Below, one piece after another: positions 43,619 through 54,286 of a stretch of 64,000 bases of DNA (position 1 is the stretch's first letter; the number at the start of each line of letters is the position of its first letter). This stretch comes from Spiroplasma citri (GTDB taxonomy: Bacteria; Bacillota_I; Bacilli_A; Mycoplasmatales; Mycoplasmataceae). The stretch covers positions 496,001-560,000 of the forward strand of contig NZ_CP013197.1 in assembly GCF_001886855.1 (NCBI RefSeq), in the 5' to 3' direction. Position numbers and translations under genes: made by a program. Below the pieces are notes generated by a model. The model did not search any database, was not told the DNA's origin, and saw nothing but the letters and a program-made list of their open reading frames with translations.

Positions 43619-43783
43619 TTGATAAAATTGAGTAATTTTGTTAAGAAAAATCAGAATGTAGAAAATTATTTTATTAGTAAGGAATTTATCCCTTTTACAA
43701 CAGAAAAAGCAAGTTTTATTAATTTACCTAATCATAATCGTCTCATAATCGTCATATTGGTTTTTGATTATTATGAATATTAA
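43619..43783 (+). pseudogene. 5' fragment of a plectrovirus gene
   Basis: TTG 43619 with GAAAGAAG upstream opens [36 protein letters not shown] and NHNR. An 11-base direct duplication (CATAATCGTCT) then shifts the frame; without it the next residues would be HIGFWL. The remainder of the gene is absent because minus-strand sequence of a different element begins here. Confidence 0.6.
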
Positions 43784-44645
43784 TTAATGTTTTTATAAAA
43801 TAACCATTAGTTCTTTTTTCTAACTGATAATTTGGATTTAAAAATTCAATTCATCCCTGGGTATCATTATTATCATTTAGTGCTTTTTTTATTTTGTTAT
43901 CCATTTGTGTTTTAATTTGGTTTCAATTATTAGCACTTTGTGGATTATTATCAATATTAGAATAATAACTAAATTCTTTATTTAGTTCTCTTGTTAAATT
44001 ACTTTTCATATCATTAAAACTAAAACTTGTATTAAAAATTAGTTCATTAACTTTTAATCATGTTTTCGCTCAGGTATTACTTGAATTTCATCCGTTTTTC
44101 GCTCGTGCATAAACCAAAAAATCAATTTTAATGCAATCATTATTTTCTAATTGATATCTTACATTTGCTCATCCTCATTCTTCATTTTGGGTATAACCTT
44201 GATAGTGATTAAAAATTTGTTCTGTTTTTGCTATGCCACTTATTTCATTTAGATTGATATAGTGATAAGCATTATAATTTGCCGTAGCCGCCTGATTGTG
44301 AGCAACATAACCCTCAAAATCAATTTTAATCTGTTTGTATTTATTTTTAAAATCATTTCAACTACTAGCATAATTCAATATATTAACATAATAATATGAT
44401 GATTCTACTTTCTGTGTATAATCACCACCCCAAGTTCCACCCGTTTCGACATCAATATCATCATTCCAATTAATATTTTTTGTAAAACTTGGTGCTGTTG
44501 GATTAAAACTTTTCTTTGCATTTTTACTGATAACTTGTTCTTGTTTTATAAACAAAAAATTATCATTGATGGATGATTTGACAATAAATGGTTCACTTAC
44601 ACCAATCAACGATGTTAATAAACATGATAATATAATCTTTTTCAC
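43728..44645 (-). CDS. Secreted protein, C-terminus at the junction with phage DNA
   Basis: 305 residues. [20 protein letters not shown] is a signal peptide. The mature protein is rich in Trp, Tyr and Asn ([33 protein letters not shown]-type stretches), which suggests a beta-rich extracellular fold. AGGAGG precedes ATG 44645. The last codons (IWRLWDDYD) lie in plectrovirus sequence, so the natural C-terminus may have been replaced. Last gene of the long minus-strand operon. Function unknown. Confidence 0.7.
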
Positions 44646-44708
44646 AGGATATAACCTCCTTTCTGCTTTAAAAATATTTTATAAATTGCTTTTAAATATT
44701 TTTTCATT

Positions 44709-44939
44709 TTATTTCAAAGTTGGATATATTAATCCAATTCACAATCCAATTACTAACAAAAATAACACAAAACAACTTATACTAAAATATAATATTATTC
44801 GACAAGTTTTTTTGTATTTCGTTAACTCAATTTGTTTTTTCATTTTTTGCAATTTAATACCAAGAAACTTCCATAAACAACCAAACAAGCCGATTATGGC
44901 AATTGTTCCCATCATACCAATTATTGTATTTAACATCAT
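44709..44939 (-). CDS. Small two-helix membrane protein
   Basis: 76 residues: helix MMLNTIIGMMGTIAIIGLFG, a basic loop (KLQKMKKQIELTKYKK), a second helix (IILYFSISCFVLFLLVIGLW). The start overlaps the end of the metalloprotease gene by 10 bases and AGGAAG precedes it. No family recognised. Confidence 0.7.
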
Positions 44940-45916
44940 TTACACTTCCTTTCTTTTTTATTTCTTATTTGTGGTAAATAACTTGTAAAGTATTCGTTTC
45001 AAAATGCTCATATTTTTGTTTGCATACTTTGTTTTGTTAATAACCAATATGCAAATCCCTCTGCCAATAACTTGTCATCATCACTCAATCCATAATTACT
45101 GTTAGCAAATATCCTTAACACTTTTTCTTTGTCTAGTTCTGCAAACTTATTTAAGTTATTAATTTTCTGTCCTAAAAATTGCTTTAAATAAAAAATATGA
45201 TTGATTTTAAATTCTTCTCAATCATAAAAATAAAAGATATGTCCTAATTCATGGATTAAAATATGCAGAAAATTATTGGTTGTAAATTGTCCTTTGTGTC
45301 ATTCACTATTTATTGTTTTTTCAAATGCACAAGATAAAACCTTTTTGTTTAGCAAAATAGTTTGGTGATTATTTGTTTGTCCTAAGACATTATTATCACC
45401 ATCAATCGCATTTTTTATTTCCATTTTCTTTAAAATTTCACTGATATTTGTTTTATTTCAAATATTAGCAACAAAATTATAAAACAATAAAATAAGTTGC
45501 TTTAAATTATCTTGGTATTGTTGACAAATATTATTCAATAAATTTTGTCAATAATTTTGTTGTTCTATTTTTAAATAATATTGTAGTTGTTGATAAGTAC
45601 TAAATTCTGTTTTAAATTTAATTTCTAAATTAATATCTGCTTTGCTTAAAAAAGCATCTGTTAAATTTTTGATTATATCTTTTTTATATTGATTAAAGAA
45701 AGTTCCTTTATAACCTCGCTGTTGCATTAAAACGGAGTGGGGTAAGTATATTTTTTCTAAATTAATATTTGTTTCTGAATTAACTTTTAAATCATTTTTG
45801 AAAGTGATTGGTGGTAAATATGTTTTATTATTAACAATATTAGCACAATTAATCAAATTCACTGTGTTTGTGCATAAAAACGAAAATATTGCTAAAAAAC
45901 TAAGTAATTTTTTCAT
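44930..45916 (-). CDS. Lipoprotein with zinc-metalloprotease motif
   Basis: 328 residues. The signal peptide MKKLLSFLAIFSFLCTNTVN ends at lipobox LINC. Near residue 240 is HILIHELGHIFYFYDWE, a HExxH zinc site, and about 60 residues later LLAEGFAYWLLTKQ offers a third ligand Glu in the order of gluzincins. It is therefore probably a surface-anchored peptidase. The first 20 residues are nearly identical to those of the lipoprotein at 51413. In this operon it might process the cell envelope or a host protein; that is inference. Confidence 0.75.
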
Positions 45917-45950
45917 ACATTTTTATTTTTCCTTTCTATTTTGACAAAAT

Positions 45951-45978
45951 AAAAAAACAGCAAACTTAATTGCTGTTT
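45951..45978 (-). terminator. Minus-strand terminator
   Basis: AAACAGCAA and TTGCTGTTT pair around a 6-base loop and are followed on the minus strand by T7. It divides the operon into at least two units. Confidence 0.65.
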
Positions 45979-46002
45979 ATAACTTACATTACTTTTGCTA
46001 AT

Positions 46003-46116
46003 TTATTTGTTTTCATTTGATTCACTAATATTTTCAATATTTTTTGTTTCATTTTTACAGTTAGCTTTATTTTGTTTTTTATTTCTACAAAATAGTTTTT
46101 TAAATCAACATTTCAT
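46003..46116 (-). CDS. Tiny basic peptide
   Basis: 37 residues, MKCWFKKLFCRNKKQNKANC followed by an Asn/Glu-rich tail. AAAGGATGTGATAAAA precedes ATG. Three cysteines. A scrap at 51330-51400 (NDLCIDNKKQNKSKYKDE) resembles it. Whether it is translated is uncertain. Confidence 0.45.
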
Positions 46117-46130
46117 TTTTATCACATCCT

Positions 46131-46319
46131 TTACTTTTTATACTTTTTCTTATTTTCTTGTTGTCTAATACTACCGTTAATACAAACTTGACATTTTTTT
46201 GTTAAGCAAACTTGACAAGAAATACACTTTAAACAACTTTTACAACCTTGGAAAGAACCTGTACAAACACGACAAGTATAGCAATTATGACCTCCACCAG
46301 GACAACAAATTTCTAACAT
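46131..46319 (-). CDS. Cysteine-rich 62-residue protein
   Basis: MLEICCPGGGHNCYTCRVCT, then GSFQGCKSCLKCISCQVCLT, then KKCQVCINGS and a basic tail. Fourteen of the first 48 residues are Cys, mostly as CxxC pairs, so it should bind several zinc ions or another metal, or be a disulfide knot if exported. It has no signal peptide. The ribosome site GGGAGGAAAAT is one of the strongest in the window. No family is recognised. Confidence 0.75.
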   Translation of the reverse strand: MLEICCPGGGHNCYTCRVCTGSFQGCKSCLKCISCQVCLTKKCQVCINGSIRQQENKKKYKK

Positions 46320-46355
46320 ATTTTCCTCCCTTTACATTTAATTATTTTTACTGGT

Positions 46356-46709
46356 TTATTTGTTTTCAGTTGTTTTACTAATGTTTTTAATATTGTCTGT
46401 TTTATTTTGTTTTTTATTTAAATTTTTAAAAGCTGCTTTTATTTCTTGAATTTTTTTATCATCATTTTTTAATAGTTCAGGGTGACACTTTTTATAACTT
46501 AATTTAAGATGTTTCCTAACTGAATCAAAATCAAGTACCTCAACTTCAATTTCATCACTAATATCAAAAAAATCTTTAATATCTTTAACAAAGTAATCTG
46601 AAACTTCACTAATATGGATTAAACCATCAGCTCTTTCTGCTCTACAAAAAGCACCATAGGGCGTAATGTTTGTTATTTTAACAATAACTTTATTTCCTTT
46701 TTCATACAT
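46356..46709 (-). CDS. S1-domain RNA-binding protein
   Basis: 117 residues. The first 75 form one S1 OB-fold: YEKGNKVIVKITNITPYGAF, GLIHISEVSDYF, VEVLDFDSVRKHLKLSYK. The rest is a Lys/Asn-rich tail. Short S1 proteins bind single-stranded RNA. AAAAGGAGATATAT precedes the start. In a mobile-element operon it may act in translation or plasmid-type copy control, which I cannot tell. Confidence 0.85.
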   Translation of the reverse strand: MYEKGNKVIVKITNITPYGAFCRAERADGLIHISEVSDYFVKDIKDFFDISDEIEVEVLDFDSVRKHLKLSYKKCHPELLKNDDKKIQEIKAAFKNLNKKQNKTDNIKNISKTTENK

Positions 46710-46767
46710 AAATAAAATATATCTCCTTTTCTAAATTAAATTTTGATAAGTTGATATTTGATACATT

Positions 46768-47485
46768 TTATCTTTGTTTATTTGTTTCTTTTAATTTTAG
46801 TTCCATTTCTAAAATTTCTTTTTTTAAGCGTAAATTTTCATTTTCAAGTAATAAATTTGGCTGCGTTTGCTGTTGTTTTTGATTTTCTTTTGCTTTCAGA
46901 GATTCCAATTCTATTTTTAACTTAGCAATTTCTGCTTTTTGTTCAGGAATATTTTTTTCATAGTATTTTATTAATTTATGTGTTGTTTTAGATGGTTTAT
47001 CTATTTTATTTCATTTTGTTTTATTTTCACTTTTTCTTCATATTTCATAATATTCTATTTCTTGTTTATAAAGAACAAATTTACTTTCATCTTCTTCTAA
47101 TTCTTTTTCTCTGATTTGAATGCGATATTCGAGAAATGGAATTGCACCTTTTTTATATTCGTCGTATCATTCTCAAGCTTGATCTCATCTTATTTGTTTT
47201 GAATCAGTATTTTTAGGGTGTAATTCACTTGCATTATTAATATGTGAGTTTTTTAATCATGTATATTTAGCAGTTATTGGGATAATACGACCAAATTTTT
47301 CTAATACTCACATAACATTATTTTTGTCATCGTCGTTTAATCTATCAATGCTTAGAGGAATATTATTAGTTCCCCCCTTGTGAGTTAATAATTGCACCGT
47401 GAATTTCAGTTGCAAGACCTCTGTCTTGCATTTTGGCAACGCGTTCTCAGTTGATTTCGCCACCTAATAATCGTCATAATCCCAT
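46768..47485 (-). pseudogene. Coiled-coil protein, one frameshift
   Basis: Starts MGLWRLLGGEINWERVAKMQ at 47485 with GGAGTAATAAATT upstream. A six-G run (complement of 47372-47377) ends the frame after about 40 residues. With five G it continues TNNIPLSIDRLNDDDKNNVM, a Trp-rich part (IRWDQAWEWYDEYKKG), and a long coiled coil with Gln-rich linker to LKLKETNKQR. Corrected length about 238 residues. No family recognised. As with other breaks, error or true mutation cannot be separated here. Confidence 0.65.
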
Positions 47486-47574
47486 AATTTATTACTCCTT
47501 TTTACTTATATTATACCGCATTTCTTATTTTTGTCAGGTGTTTTTTTACTTATGACTTTTTCTTTTCTGCTTTT

Positions 47575-49212
47575 TTAGCAACGGGTTTTTTCATCCCATT
47601 TTTTATTTCTAGTATTTTGTTTTGTAATATGACTAGCAATATTTTTATTAAGTTTATCTGCTTTTTTATAAACTTTTTTAACTGGCTTATTGTGTTTTGC
47701 TTGTTGTTTATTTTGTGAATTAACAAAAACAAAACTATTATTTGGAATATTTAATTTTGCTTTTATTTTGTTTACTTTCCCTAGTTTTTTGTTTAAAGAC
47801 TCAGATTTTGAATTACTGAAATTGCTTGTTTTTAACTTATTAGTTTCATTACCACTATTTGCCAATTGTGGGTTAAATCTTTTACCAATTGCTTTGAATG
47901 GTGTTGCAACTCCAATTCCAATTTGGCGGAAGAATCCTTTTGTTCCACCACCGCGAACTGCCCCCACTAGTTTACTTGTTGCAAGCGTTGTGACCCCAAG
48001 TCCAAAGCCCGCTAAACCAACAATCCCAGCTCTTGAACTCATTCCCTCGGTCGCGTGTCAGAAATGGCGAAAGTCAAGGGGTTTTTCTTGGCGAGATTGA
48101 CCGCTTGATGATTCACTATCTCCTCAATCAGCATCACCACCAGAACCCATCGCATTCATGGTTTTATCTGCCATACTAGTACCACCACCCATTGTCATTG
48201 CTCGTTTGGCTCTTTTGCTTTTGGCAAATCCAAATGCTTTTCCTGCCATTTTAGCAGCTCCCATTGCCATCATTCCACCAGCAACAGTTGATTTCATTGA
48301 ACTCATTCCCTCCCTAACACCAGCTGCTTCACCAATTAAGTTGGCAACAACATCCGAAAACGCCATTACTGCCAAGCCACCACCGCACATAAACAGAATA
48401 ACAAACAATGATTTTCCAATTCCCTCAATACCTAATCCTGCTAAATTAGTGCTTAAAATTGTTTGAATTGTTGTCATAAAAATAAAATATCCTGTTAAAG
48501 TGGCGGTTGATGCTAGAAATTTTGCAATTACCATATCTTTTCAAATAAATGCTCCTTTACCATTGTCAATTGTCATAATAATCATTACTCATAGCGAAAT
48601 AATAAATAAGAAAAACAATTCGATTATTTTTTGTACCAAAGCAATTCCAATCATAAACATTGCAAACAACATAAATCACACTCCAAAAACTTCGGCAATC
48701 ATATTAAAATCACCAATATTGTCAGGATAGGAATAATTTTTTGGTATATTATCACCACTACCATCTCAATTGGTATTTCCGATATTGTATAGATAGTTTG
48801 CAATATTTCCGTTTTCACCACCAAATCCCGATGTAATCATTTTGGCAATGTTAGAAATTGCAAAATTAGTCAAAAAGAAAAAGATTGGAATTAAAAAGAT
48901 AAAAACAAACGCTTTACTACCATTTTGTAAAGCAACAATAAATTTTGTTTTTGTTTCGGTGGCATCTTGAAACAAAATTTTAATCATAGTAATTGTAAAT
49001 ATTAAGGAAAATAAACACAAAGCAGTTATGACAAAATATCAGAATGCCATTGGGATATTTTGAAAACTAAATTCTTGTTTTGATCCAAACATTAAATCAC
49101 CAACCACTCCTCCCGTTAAATAATTTAGGACTGTGTTAAATGATGCAATTAATTGCAATGGCCCTTGTACAAAAATTGATCATATTAGTTTATACAGTGC
49201 ATTAAGTATCAT
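47575..49212 (-). CDS. VirB6/TrbL-like membrane protein of a conjugation-type system
   Basis: 545 residues in one frame. The N-terminal 300 residues carry about six transmembrane helices, for example FWYFVITALCLFSLIFTITM, AFVFIFLIPIFFFLTNFAIS and IIELFFLFIISLWVMIIM. A glycine- and methionine-rich segment follows (GGMMAMGAAKMAGKAFGFAK, MTMGGGTSMADKTM), then a basic low-complexity tail. This layout is that of TrbL/VirB6-type channel proteins, including those in mollicute ICEs. The end KKWDEKTRC may be shifted; one base earlier gives a Lys-rich KKPVAKKAEKKKS ending at 47550. No VirB4 or coupling ATPase is in the window. Confidence 0.75.
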
Positions 49213-49242
49213 AATTTTTCACTTCCTTTCATTTTTTATCAA

Positions 49243-49533
49243 CTATGTTCCAATACTAGGGTTATATGTTTTGATAACTTGTAAAATAACATTCATAACA
49301 GCAATTACAACTAAAATTATAATAATTGCTATAATCGGTCATTTTAAAGCACTTAAATCATTTCCTCTCGCTTCAGGATTATCAGCATTTCGCATTATTG
49401 AAATTAAAATAATAATTAATTTTCAAACTGTAAAAACAACTGCCAAACCCATTATTACTCCCAAAACAACATTACTTCATAATATAACAACATCCATTAT
49501 TCCACTAAAATCTGCTGTGTTGTTTGATTTCAT
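49243..49533 (-). CDS. Small two-helix membrane protein, VirB2-like in layout
   Basis: 96 residues with two helices (VVLGVIMGLAVVFTVWKLII; WPIIAIIIILVVIAVMNVIL) joined by a polar loop (RNADNPEARGNDLSALK). The size, two-helix layout and place beside the VirB6-like gene fit a VirB2/TrbC-type pilin or channel subunit. AAAGGAGGATGAAAAT precedes ATG. There is no sequence motif that proves the family. Confidence 0.7.
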
Positions 49534-49550
49534 ATTTTCATCCTCCTTTG

Positions 49551-49670
49551 TTATTTTAAAAATTTGTTTTTACTTAATTTGTTTCTTTTTTGATAATAAA
49601 TATTTTTCTTTTTTTGATAATATTGCTGTTGATTATTAAAGTAATTTTTAATATTGTTTTTCTTAGTCAT
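49551..49670 (-). CDS. Tiny basic peptide
   Basis: 39 residues, MTKKNNIKNYFNNQQQYYQK, then a Lys/Tyr-rich end. AAAGGAAAGAAAAAA precedes it and the start overlaps the preceding gene. Very basic, possibly nucleic-acid binding. Translation is plausible but unproven. Confidence 0.5.
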   Translation of the reverse strand: MTKKNNIKNYFNNQQQYYQKKKNIYYQKRNKLSKNKFLK

Positions 49671-49854
49671 TTTTTTCTTTCCTTTCGAAAGGTAAGTAAA
49701 ATAAATGCAATAATAAATTACCAATCATAAAATCACAATCAATTCCAAGGGCAATTAAAAACAAAATAGGGGAAATTATTAGCAACAAAATTCCAATAAT
49801 AATTGTTAAAGGATATAAAAGTAATTTTCACCAAACTTTTCTCTTATTTTGCAT
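49663..49854 (-). CDS. Small membrane protein
   Basis: 63 residues with a basic start (MQNKRKVWWKLLL) and two close hydrophobic segments (LTIIIGILLLIISPILFLIA; FMIGNLLLHLFYL). VirB3-like in size and position next to the VirB2- and VirB6-like genes, but without a recognisable motif. Confidence 0.6.
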
Positions 49855-49856
49855 CT

Positions 49857-51114
49857 TTAATTTTTCCTTTCTATTTGAAACATTGCTGTAAATATTTTTT
49901 CTAACACATCAACAACAATGCTATTACCAGCTTGTTTATAAAGTTGGGTTTCTGAAACAACTTTGCTTGCTTTATCAAAGTCTTTATTACTAAATCCCAT
50001 TAATAATCAACATTCACAAGGGGTTAACACTCGTAAAAAGTATTCTTTTTCAGCAATTAAAAAAGATAGTATTTTACTACTATCTTGTTGTTGTCTTTTA
50101 TTATCAATCATAATTTTATTGACATTACTTGCTGCGATTGTTCCCATATAATTATTTTCTGTTTTTCAAAACCGATTATATGATCCATTAATTAGCAAAC
50201 CATCTTTTGCTCGTGGTAAAACAATAAAATTACCATAATCCTTAATTGGCAATGCAATTTGTGGTGGTCTCCCGTGTCCTGTTGTAATGGTTGGAATAAG
50301 ATTATTTTTTGTTATATCATTAAAAATATTAACTTGATTATAATTTCTCAGATTAATCATTAATTTTCCATCATTAAGTTTTTTTATATCATTGGGAATT
50401 GCAATAATTTCTGCGTTTCCTCATCGCATTTGTTTTGTTGTAATTGTATAAGAACATTGTTGAATGATTTTAAGTTTATTGTTTTCAATTGCTTTTTTCA
50501 TTGATTCTTGTCTAATAAAATATTTTTCATTTACATTGTTTTCTAAAATATCTTTTACTAAAAATTTTAAATTACAAGGTTGGGGATATTGAAATTTAAA
50601 ATCTTGTTTTAATGTTGAAATCATAAATAATCGTTTTCTATTTTGGGGAATTCCATAATCTTTGGCATTCATTGTAAAATATTGGTTATGATATCCTAAT
50701 TTATTAAGTTGATTTTGTAGATTTTGAAATCCAACAAAAAACTTTTTACTTAATAAATTTGGTACATTTTCCATTAAAAGATATTGCGGTTTTATTGCCA
50801 TTGTGCTTATTAAATCAACAACTTTGTAAGCCAAACCACTTCGCTTGCCATTTAATCCTTGGCCATTATTATTGGCATTTGATATGTCTTGGCATGGGAA
50901 TGATCAAGTTATTAAATCAGCATATGGTAAAGTTTCTAATTTAGTAATGTCACCTTAAATTTGGTGTGTCATAATCATTAAAAATCGCTCGATATGATTT
51001 TTCAGCGTATTTATCATTATCACAAAAAGCAATTACTTTGTGGTTAATTCCAATCTTTTCTAATGCTTTTCTTTGACTCCCAATCCCAGCAAATAATTCA
51101 ATTACTTTAAGCAT
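49857..51114 (-). pseudogene. DNA cytosine-C5 methyltransferase, one frameshift
   Basis: Starts MLKVIELFAGIGSQRKALEK (SAM motif I). Near 50960 one extra A in TTTAAGG ends the frame; without it the protein continues GDITKLETLPYADLITW, then SFPCQDIS (catalytic Cys, motif IV), LMENVPNLL (motif VI), PQNRKRLFMIS (motif VIII) and YKQAGNSIVVDVL (motif X), to 49857. Corrected length 418 residues, full size. The long region between motifs VIII and IX is the target-recognition domain; specificity cannot be read. No restriction enzyme is nearby, so its role would be protection or regulation of the element. Confidence 0.85.
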
Positions 51115-51272
51115 AATAAACAATCATTCTTCTAATTTTTCTTTTATCTAAAACGATTCATGGATTGGGATACCTATAATAACAAAAAAATAATATATTA
51201 ATATTGTTTTCAATATAAATATTATGAATATATTTACAAAATGGGCAATTAATCATTTCTGCACCTCTTTCT

Positions 51273-51304
51273 AAAAAAAACAAGATAATTAATATCTTGT
51301 TTTG
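51273..51304 (-). terminator. Minus-strand terminator
   Basis: AAAACAAGATA and TATCTTGTTTT pair around ATTAA; T8 follows on the minus strand. It ends the unit with the 51413 gene. Confidence 0.7.
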
Positions 51305-51412
51305 TGTTATTTTCATTATTTATGTTTTTTTAATTTAATCTATTGATGTATTTTCATCTTTATACTTGCTTTTATTTTGTTTTTTGTTATCTATACATAA
51401 ATCATTTCTTCC

Positions 51413-51946
51413 TTAATTGTTTTTAATTTCGTCTAAAATTGTTTTTATATTTTTTATTTTTGTATTTATTTTTTCTAAATCTTTCTGGTCAAAATCACTA
51501 TTTTTATTTTCGCTTAATAAATTTAAAGTACTATTTAAGTTGTTTATTTGTTTTTTTAATAACTTAATTGCTTGTTGTTTTTGTTCGTCTGTAAACTCAT
51601 TTTCTTTTTGACATAGTAAAATTTGATATTCGCAATTATTTAGTTCAGACATTTTAATAAATTTTTCTGCTTGTGATTGGTTTAATTCTGTATGATAATC
51701 TGTTTCGTTTTCATAATCATTTTTACTATTTTCAATTTCTTTAATTACTTCATCATATTCTTTGATTTCTGCTGTAATTTCTTGTTTTAATTTTTCATAG
51801 TAAAAAACATCTTTGACTATTGGTTCTTTTGGTTTTGCTGGTGGTAAGTGTGGTTTATTATTTGCAATATTACCACAACTAATCAAATTCACTGTTTTTG
51901 TACACGATAACGAAAATATTGCTAAAAAACTAAGTAATTTTTTCAT
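51413..51946 (-). CDS. Lipoprotein with coiled coil
   Basis: 177 residues. Signal MKKLLSFLAIFSLSCTKTVN with lipobox LISC, then a Pro/Lys linker (LPPAKPKEPIVKD) and a long charged coiled coil (IKEYDEVIKEIENSKNDYE; LNLLSENKNSDFDQKDLE). The signal peptide is almost the same as that of the 44930 protein, so one may have been copied from the other. Surface protein of unknown role. Confidence 0.8.
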   Translation of the reverse strand: MKKLLSFLAIFSLSCTKTVNLISCGNIANNKPHLPPAKPKEPIVKDVFYYEKLKQEITAEIKEYDEVIKEIENSKNDYENETDYHTELNQSQAEKFIKMSELNNCEYQILLCQKENEFTDEQKQQAIKLLKKQINNLNSTLNLLSENKNSDFDQKDLEKINTKIKNIKTILDEIKNN

Positions 51947-51993
51947 ATTTGTTGTATCCTAAATAAAAACCATTTTCTCAATAATTGGGGTTA

Positions 51994-52413
51994 TCAATTG
52001 GGGTTATCAATATTTTCTAAATCTTCTAGTAATTGTTTTAATTCTTCTAATGTTAATTTTTGTTGTTGTATTTTATTATTTTTATAATGATTATCATATT
52101 TATTTAGTAAATCATTATTAGCATCAATGTTGTTTTGCGAATTAAACTGTTTTTTGTTTTCATGTTTTAATTTTTCAAAAGATAAAATTAAATTTTTTCC
52201 CACAATATTACCATTTTTATTATTGATACTACTATGAACCGCATAATTTTTATTTTCATCAATTTTTAAACAAAAATAATTTTTATAATTTGATAAACCT
52301 AAACAATTTTTATCTAAAACAACACAATCTTTTTGTTTGTTTATTAAAATATGCGTTTTATTTTTTATTTCTTGTGAAATTAAATTTTGGTTTAAATAAA
52401 TTTTTTTTATCAT
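51994..52413 (-). CDS. Hypothetical protein
   Basis: 139 residues from ATG 52413, with AGGTAGG 9 bases upstream (GTG 52422 is an alternative). MIKKIYLNQNLISQEIKNK opens a beta-prone domain of about 75 residues, followed by a charged linker and a helical end (LTLEELKQLLEDLENIDN). No family recognised. Confidence 0.65.
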   Translation of the reverse strand: MIKKIYLNQNLISQEIKNKTHILINKQKDCVVLDKNCLGLSNYKNYFCLKIDENKNYAVHSSINNKNGNIVGKNLILSFEKLKHENKKQFNSQNNIDANNDLLNKYDNHYKNNKIQQQKLTLEELKQLLEDLENIDNPN

Positions 52414-52519
52414 ATTTAACACCTACCTAACTTTTTTTGCTTTTAATTTTATTTTTCCTAAAATTAATATCTAATAGTATTTTAAAAATAAATAATTAAT
52501 TAAACCAAAAAATCACTTC

Positions 52520-52898
52520 TTAACGAACTGGTTCTATATTTTTGTCTGAATCTTTTTGTCATTTAATATCAGATAAATAATTTATCACTGTCACTGTATA
52601 ACTAAATTTATCTTCAACTAATTTTATCTTCCTTACTTTCTAACTTACTTGGTAAATTATTAATATCTTTAATTAGGCAATATCTATGATTATTACTTTC
52701 ACAATATTTTAAGTGCATTTCAATTGTTATTTCATCAGTTTGTAAACTTTCTCAATCATATGTAAGTTTATCTTCTTCACAAAGTAAATAAAAGTCTTCT
52801 TTAAATAAATGTTTTGATTTTAGTTTTTTAATTTCTTTATCTTTTTCAGCAAGTTCTTTTTTAAGTTTGTCATATTTAATTAATTCTGTTATATTCAT
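52520..52898 (-). pseudogene. Hypothetical protein, frameshifted near its end
   Basis: Starts MNITELIKYDKLKKELAEKD with coiled coil, then EEDKLTYDWESLQTDEITIE and NNLPSKLESKED. The frame ends at 52608, but a frame one base off continues KIKLVEDKFSYTVTVINYLS and DIKWQKDSDKN to TAA 52520. The second part looks like genuine coding sequence, so one base has been lost or gained around 52620. Corrected length about 126 residues. Confidence 0.55.
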
Positions 52899-53017
52899 TA
52901 TTTTTTCTTTCTAAAAATATATGGGTTTTTTGCAAAAATACAATAAACATTTGTGCATCATAAATGTTTATTATCACCATCTATTTTTGATCTACATTTA
53001 GGACAACTTTTCCTCAT
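52898..53017 (-). CDS. Mini zinc-ribbon protein
   Basis: 39 residues. MRKSCPKCRSKIDGDNKHLW then CTNVYC: CPKC and CxxxxC form a possible four-Cys zinc site. AAAGGAGATAAAAATA precedes ATG and the stop overlaps the next gene's start by one base. Function unknown. Confidence 0.6.
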
Positions 53018-53057
53018 TATTTTTATCTCCTTTATTTTTTACTTATCAAAAATAAAA

Positions 53058-53090
53058 AACCAACTAATTTTAATAAATAGTTGGTTTAAT
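53058..53090 (-). terminator. Minus-strand terminator
   Basis: AAACCAACTA and TAGTTGGTTT arms with an 11-base loop, followed on the minus strand by T6. Confidence 0.7.
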
Positions 53091-53093
53091 TTT

Positions 53094-53246
53094 TTATCGT
53101 ATTTGATTTAAAATATTTTCAATATTATTAACTTTATGAATTAAAGTTTCCATAATTTGTTCTAAATTGCTTAAATTGTTTTCTGTTGTTGTTTTAATCT
53201 CGTTAATTAACTCGCTAATCGTATTTTTGATATTATTTTCAACCAT
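53094..53246 (-). CDS. Small coiled-coil protein
   Basis: 50 residues, MVENNIKNTISELINEIKTT followed by ENNLSNLEQIMETLIHKVNN, regular heptads throughout, so probably a dimer or trimer. AAAGGAGAAATTATAAA precedes ATG. Confidence 0.6.
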   Translation of the reverse strand: MVENNIKNTISELINEIKTTTENNLSNLEQIMETLIHKVNNIENILNQIR

Positions 53247-53263: not shown

Positions 53264-53566
53264 CTAATTTTTAATATTAATAATTCATCATTTATTTTTC
53301 TTAAAAATTAATTTTTTAATAATTTGATGGTTATTTTTGCATTGTAAAGTCAAAAATCAAAGATTATAACTTATTTTTTGTTTGTTAATAAATTCTAATC
53401 TTGCTAAACAATACCGAGCATACTTTTTACAATATCAGCCACCTTTTTTGTTTTTGGTTAATTTTGTAAAGTCCTCATTGATATAACACTGACATTTATT
53501 AATTAATCCTCTCTTATTTTTTAATTTAATTTTTAACTCTTTTCAACAGAGTTTTTTTAAAGACAC
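53264..53566 (-). CDS. Basic Cys-containing protein, GTG start
   Basis: 100 residues from GTG 53566, with AAGGAGGATTTGAAA directly upstream. MSLKKLCWKELKIKLKNKRG leads to NKCQCYINEDFTK, KKGGWYCKKYARYCLARLEF and a basic end. Five Cys residues (CQC, YC, YC) could bind metal. First gene of the long operon, next to the structured non-coding region, so a DNA-binding or regulatory role is conceivable. No family recognised. Confidence 0.65.
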
Positions 53567-53847
53567 TTTCAAATCCTCCTTATAAATAGTAAGATTTCTA
53601 AATTTTTTTATTGTGGAACACTTACCCTTTAACCATTGCAGGTTAAAGATTTATCCCCAAACCACGATAACTCTTTTATATTGCCTAAAAGAATTGCCTG
53701 CATTATGTCGTAGCGGTACGGCCACCCCTATATTGTTTATCCTCGCTTGCTTGGTTTTACGACATTCCAAGTAGGAGAGTTTTATTCGGTTGGTTTTGCT
53801 GTTATTTTCTTAAGCTAAGCAAGGTTAACGACAACTTTAACCTAATT
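53567..53847. other. Structured non-coding region heading the minus-strand operon
   Basis: No gene, yet GC content is higher than its surroundings. CTTTAACC/GGTTAAAG forms a perfect hairpin (53627-53648, 6-base loop). AGGTTAA/TTAACCT forms another (53822-53843) using the same motif. GTAGCGGTACGGCCACCCC (about 53710) and TATCCTCGCTTGCTTGG are conspicuous. The whole could be an origin, an oriT or a structured leader RNA for the operon. Confidence 0.5.
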
Positions 53848-53879
53848 AAAAAAGATAGAATTTTATATCTATCTTTTTC
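53848..53879. terminator. Bidirectional terminator
   Basis: AAAAAGATAGA and TCTATCTTTTT pair around an 8-base loop with A and T runs on both sides. Confidence 0.7.
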
Positions 53880-53913
53880 TTAGTTTTTGGAAATTTTATA
53901 CCAAACGATAACT

Positions 53914-54286
53914 TTACGCGGTCAAAATATCTTTATATCTTTTTCCATCACCTATAAAAGACATATATTTATTTTTTAAATTTATTTCAATTCTTTCGTA
54001 TTTTTTTAAGCCTAATTCTTCATCTAAAGGATAACGATTTATATTTTCTTTTTTTTCTTCATCATATTTAACATATAATCTTCTTCTTTATAGGAATATT
54101 TCCATATTCTGTTTTAATTGTTTTTGGTAATTTTGATATAACCTTATATCCTTGTAATATTTGTCCTTGTTGATATAATTTAAATATCTCATTATCTCTA
54201 TTAATTAATAAATTTTTAACTTCATTTTGTGTCTCGATTGTTTTATTTTTTTTATAATTTCCTAACAAATTTTTTTCTAACTCCAT
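53914..54286 (-). pseudogene. UPF0236 / ICE transposase-like protein, N-terminal fragment
   Basis: Starts MELEKNLLGNYKKNKTIETQ at 54286 and leads to LPKTIKTEYGNIPIK. One base later in phase the sequence reads RRLYVKYDEEKKENI, LDEELGLKKYERIEINLK and MSFIGDGKRYKDI, then TAA. These are the conserved N-terminal segments of the UPF0236 family, annotated in mollicute ICEs as Mbov_0401-like. The remaining two thirds of the protein are missing. It links this neighbourhood to ICE-type elements. Confidence 0.7.

Follow-up and report, generated by a model that had tools for sequence, protein, structure and literature searches.

A constrained noncoding region at the ORF1-side end of a Mollicutes ICE in Spiroplasma

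Related systems

Among described systems, the Mollicutes ICEs (MICEs) are the closest to the locus considered here, and their features have been described in several studies (PMC6030558, PMC3942029, PMC7648426). The traits that our element has in common with ICEA, ICEHo-I/II and the p-MULT 5 transposase are a DDE transposase of the Mbov_0401 family near one end, a VirB4 of the Mbov_0397 type, a TraG-like ATPase, lipoproteins, terminal repeats that start with G-CCGyGTAAA, target duplications of 8-9 bp, varied insertion sites, and a conserved untranslated region upstream of the first gene. In the MICEs of M. hominis, this region spans about 210 bp upstream of CDS1 and ends in a similar repeat, GGCCGTGTAAA... 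(PMC7648426); the position of the oriT of these elements is still an open question (PMC6030558).

As for transfer origins in other systems, the MOBV1 oriT (pMV158 type) is located directly upstream of the relaxase gene, and it consists of overlapping inverted repeats together with a direct repeat (PMC5863519). In S. citri itself, the pSci plasmids have inverted-repeat clusters (IRR) located upstream of the pF gene, for which a role in transfer, as oriT, or in replication was proposed (PMC2386487).

The locus described here lies in a window of 64,000 nucleotides, the whole stretch of Spiroplasma citri DNA that was analysed. Compared to the MICEs listed above, it differs in its Spiroplasma host, in the presence of a recognisable MobV (Mob_Pre) relaxase, and in its longer untranslated end (357 bp, from the start of ORF1 to the end of the element) with a GC-richer, hairpin-rich core; in addition, the window copy is truncated. 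Its noncoding region, named E1, recalls the description of the pSci IRR, in that both are groups of hairpins preceding a small gene.

The operon and the complete element

The sequence-only reading had placed a structured region, 53567-53847, at the head of an operon, and this position is correct: a conjugation operon is encoded on the minus strand, and the region begins at the base immediately preceding the GTG of its first gene, so that E1 adjoins both this start codon and its ribosome-binding site. In this organism TGA is read as tryptophan, and the relevant features are:

53267..53566, minus strand: ORF1, the gene that opens the conjugation operon, coding for a cysteine-rich protein of 100 aa, with its GTG start at 53566
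53575..53580, minus strand: ribosome-binding site of ORF1, AGGAGG
43740..53246, minus strand: remainder of the truncated ICE operon, with orf2, remnants of orf3-orf6, a frame-broken dcm, a T4SS pilin-like protein, a polytopic membrane protein (TrbL/VirB6-like), an S1-domain protein, lipoproteins and the N-terminal part of orf14

ORF1 is under purifying selection (dN/dS 0.28), and its predicted structure is of low confidence (pLDDT 53). An ORF1-like gene with 30% identity, shared cysteines and a C-x2-NH motif occurs at L109:6754-7050 in Spiroplasma sp. JKS002669; judging from such residues, ORF1 may be a small metal-binding protein. This locus, a divergent ICE relative, has no alignable E1, and the region upstream of its gene gives no better fold than shuffles do (z -0.9).

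In the window copy, truncated at ~43.74 kb, what remains runs from ORF1 to an initial portion of orf14; VirB4, the relaxase, TraG and the transposase have been lost. Regarding the genes that remain, the dcm gene, encoding a DNA cytosine methyltransferase (window 50834-51123), has a frame change here and is intact in the plasmid copies, and one of the lipoproteins of the operon (window 44930-45916) has a zinc-protease-like HELGH motif, with a Pfam match that is only sub-threshold.

DNA searches for the stretch gave 23 copies in total: 21 substantial ones in six Spiroplasma genomes, this genome accounting for four, and a further two on the S. citri plasmids pSciBLHMB-2 and -3; these two ICE-bearing plasmids are the only ones of the collection with a full-length E1, and the phage collection gave no match to the stretch. 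Matches of 25 bp to 53790-53814 in the chromosomes of three other genomes were discarded as chance similarity, as they lie within unrelated sequence common to them.

In both plasmids the complete element is 26.7 kb long and is bounded by GACCGCGTAAAGTTATCGTTTG and GATGGAGTAAAATAAACGTTTG, imperfect inverted terminal repeats of 22 bp, and the two copies are flanked by 9-bp target duplications, AATTTGTAA and TCTTTCTAT, respectively. Its Mutator-like DDE transposase (L042:25162-26544) matches NF046004, the Mbov_0401 ICE transposase, with 293 bits (cutoff 162), and its ATPase matches NF045975, the Mbov_0397 ICE VirB4, with 919 bits (cutoff 590); it also encodes a TraG/VirD4 coupling protein (NF045973, 285 bits), a pilin-like protein, and a MobV relaxase that scores above the Pfam Mob_Pre cut-off and below the stricter NCBIfam MobV one. 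Since the DDE transposase, VirB4, TraG/VirD4, pilin-like protein, MobV, repeats and duplications are features of Mollicutes ICEs, the element is, on the basis of its genes and ends, a Spiroplasma member of the MICE family, with excision and transfer predicted from its genes. Its insertion site is not fixed, as the flanks differ among all copies.

The end of the element

The ORF1-side end is defined by these features:

53849..53878, no strand: bidirectional terminator-like hairpin with an 11-bp stem, an A run on one side and a T run on the other
53902..53923, minus strand: terminal inverted repeat of the ORF1-side ICE end, GACCGCGTAAAGTTATCGTTTG read inwards; the element ends at 53923
53924..54156, minus strand: 5' portion of another ICE transposase gene of the Mbov_0401 type, into which the window ICE copy is inserted

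Of the 23 copies, 22 lose homology at 53923, and the flanking DNA beyond it differs in every copy, which identifies this position as the end of a mobile element. A strict terminator scan did not list the hairpin at 53849-53878 because its stem has few G-C pairs; a related terminator-like hairpin, in inverted orientation, is found at the opposite ICE end. The opposite end shares only the terminal repeat and this hairpin with the ORF1-side one, and has neither AACGACA motifs nor a comparable GC-rich region. The ORF1-side end provides exact boundaries by which these ICEs can be located and counted in the plasmids and genomes of Spiroplasma.

The window ICE copy is nested within the transposase gene of another element, whose other half falls outside the window; the gene broken at 53924-54156 is present without interruption elsewhere in the genome; it is intact in L041, and uninterrupted copies occur in L005-L008. 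Around the G012 fragment, a second end was sought that would make it a minimal, two-ended copy of the MITE-like sort; none was found.

Composition and structure of E1

E1 extends between ORF1 and the terminator-like hairpin, and its parts are:

53567..53848, no strand: E1, the conserved noncoding region that corresponds to the flagged stretch
53580..53624, no strand: 45-bp composite TTATAAATAGTAAGATTTC-N15-TGGAACACTTA, also present in a second noncoding element (E2) of other ICE copies
53627..53648, no strand: first hairpin, CTTTAACC/GGTTAAAG, inside a 9-bp outer stem (53608-53616/53662-53670)
53672..53692, no strand: third hairpin (7 bp), TCTTTTA/TAAAAGA, within the most invariant block
53710..53805, plus strand: GC-richer domain, with a long G-U-rich helix (53710-53723/53792-53805) formed in the plus-strand RNA only
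53822..53843, no strand: second hairpin, AGGTTAA/TTAACCT, motif AACGACAA

The raised G+C noticed from the letters was borne out: it is 35% across 53567-53847 and 39% between the hairpins, against ~20% in both flanks, and 35% is reached by only 6% of the same-size stretches of the element. The same applies to the two hairpins said to enclose about 170 bases, as a perfect 8-bp hairpin, CTTTAACC (53627-53634) and GGTTAAAG (53641-53648) separated by ATTGCA, is spaced by 173 bases from a perfect 7-bp one, AGGTTAA (53822-53828) paired with TTAACCT (53837-53843); such a pair of hairpins arises in 2% of dinucleotide shuffles. GTAGCGGTACGGCCACCCC is at 53710-53728, between the two. The third hairpin and the strong terminator-like one at 53849-53878 had escaped the sequence-only reading, and the claim that both of the others are built from one motif holds in part: they have in common only the core GGTTAA/TTAACC, and the second is not the CTTTAACC/GGTTAAAG pair. 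In the left arm of this second hairpin, AGGTTAACG, the C of CTTTAACC is private to the window copy; the other 17 aligned copies have ATTTTAACC, with T at this position. As for the AACGACA repeats, they are conserved, and within the element they are clustered only in E1.

The fold of 53567-53847 is better than that of every shuffle on both strands, with z of -4.75 for the plus-strand RNA, -2.9 for the minus-strand RNA and -3.3 for DNA; the GC-richer domain, taken separately, has z of -2.4 on the plus strand and +0.4 on the minus strand. RNAalifold gave a plausible plus-strand consensus of 68 pairs for 18 copies, with 97.9% of the cells paired. Shuffled columns gave 97.8%, and double changes were present in 2 of the 68 pairs, in a comparison of limited power given that the copies differ by ~5%. 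Likewise, when the 84 substitutions observed among these ~5% different copies were compared with random ones of equal type, they disrupted the fold no less on either strand, and they fell in the helices no less often. As to the arms, on whose conservation the structural proposal had been staked beforehand, they are 92-100% paired, no more than sequence identity predicts. No Rfam match was found in E1 at either gathering or permissive thresholds. As pairing is at the level of the shuffles and substitutions do not avoid the helices, a selected RNA structure is not demonstrated; at the level of sequence comparison it lacks support, and a function that resides in the sequence, such as a promoter or an operator, is favoured.

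Regarding constraint, the ratio between the E1 distance and the synonymous distance of ORF1 is 0.35 (95% CI 0.19-0.62), similar to the dN/dS of ORF1. Small ORFs in E1 were considered on both strands, including a 24-codon minus-strand frame, and were rejected: the changes are mostly amino-acid changing and the frames are broken in several copies, so that E1 has no conserved reading frame. From this combination of a reduced distance and no conserved frame, the alignments indicate that E1 is functional noncoding sequence under constraint.

Function of E1

The stretch is read here, with moderate confidence, as the untranslated ORF1-side end of a MICE, namely the promoter and leader region of its transfer operon, with a bidirectional terminator as insulation. 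This reading is consistent with the element end, the target duplications, the gene content, the constraint and the position of E1; among the functions proposed from the letters (oriT, a replication origin or a leader RNA), the leader is plausible and fits best, given that the stretch adjoins the AGGAGG and GTG of ORF1, with which the minus-strand operon opens. In such an arrangement, the terminal inverted repeat would be bound by the DDE transposase, and the bidirectional terminator hairpin would shield the element from outside transcription and, after circularisation, from that of its own other end. Transcripts arriving across the circular junction, or from outside, would be halted by this terminator; the most likely location of the promoter for the minus-strand conjugation operon is therefore E1, which would serve as its promoter/operator region and also as its 5' leader. 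The transfer genes would be controlled at this site by a regulator that may recognise the AACGACA and GGCAAT repeats or the 45-bp composite. Three results count against this assignment: a simple consensus scan found no sigma-70-like promoter inside E1 on either strand, the terminator hairpin, with its few G-C pairs, does not pass a strict scan, and the middle domain is more stable when folded as plus-strand RNA than as the minus-strand leader, in better agreement with a divergent transcript. Promoters of Mollicutes often miss a clear -35 box.

Such a divergent transcript would be a plus-strand noncoding RNA of ~250-300 nt, antisense or regulatory, ended by the terminator at 53849-53878, and it is a doubtful but substantive alternative. 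The strong plus-strand fold with its 68-pair consensus, the middle domain that folds on this strand only and the terminator that closes E1 on the same strand all agree with it, as does E2, where the 45-bp head is followed on the same side by another GGTTAA-type structured stretch. However, covariation does not exceed that of shuffles, with its two double changes only, the real substitutions damage the fold at least as much as random ones, and neither an Rfam match nor a clear promoter was found. The possibility that E1 is merely an extended end bound by the transposase would account for the short end remnants L012, L020, L031 and L014, which keep E1 without an intact ORF1, but the motifs of E1, considered as transposase sites, are absent from the other ICE end, which also has no comparable GC-rich region; we regard it as very unlikely. 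Least probable of all is that E1 serves the circular ICE as a single-strand origin or an origin of replication: the AACGACA repeats are concentrated in E1, and related Mutator-type ICEs (TnGBS) are able to replicate in circular form (PMC3942029), yet no initiator binding site, Rep gene or skew evidence was found near E1, so that this proposal of the sequence-only reading is left with no positive evidence.

It is also unlikely that E1 is the oriT of the ICE, one of the functions suggested by the sequence-only reading, with relaxase-binding hairpins and a nick site. Inverted repeats are indeed clustered beside the conjugation operon, as in the pSci regions proposed as oriT, and the MICE oriT is yet to be placed; however, the MobV relaxase gene is ~19 kb away, and the layout of overlapping inverted and direct repeats of MOBV1 oriTs, absent from E1, is present upstream of mobV in the intact copies:

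L042:19168-19207 (CP047439.1): MOBV1-oriT-like repeat block, also in L023, L043, L088, L094-L096, L098, L100 and L103

This block, ATTTTGGC-AAA-GCCAAAAT-GTATGATGAG...-ATTTTGGC, lies directly upstream of mobV, it is conserved across every copy in which it was found, and it is missing from the truncated window copy; by analogy with MOBV1, it appears a better oriT candidate than E1. The hairpin cluster is thus placed at a defined end of a multi-copy Spiroplasma ICE and the search for oriT moves to the block upstream of mobV; the recognisable relaxase and the adjoining oriT-like block make the MICE oriT question directly testable. E1 itself is an ordinary component of a known kind of element, to which this locus adds a clearly bounded member from Spiroplasma.

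A second noncoding element

E2 is a second conserved, hairpin-rich noncoding element, located between traG and the DDE transposase gene in other ICE copies:

G000:C1:78299-78519, 124562-124784 and 1495883-1496105 (L073, L080, L084): E2 copies, with further copies in G003, G007 and G011

As E2 carries the 45-bp composite found at window 53580-53624, it is possible, from the shared sequence, that E1 and E2 have a regulator in common. A broader proposal, that they are related regulatory noncoding RNAs or operators with a 45-bp head that would jointly switch the ICE between transfer and transposition, is rather improbable. In G011, E2 is found behind ORF1 in two copies.
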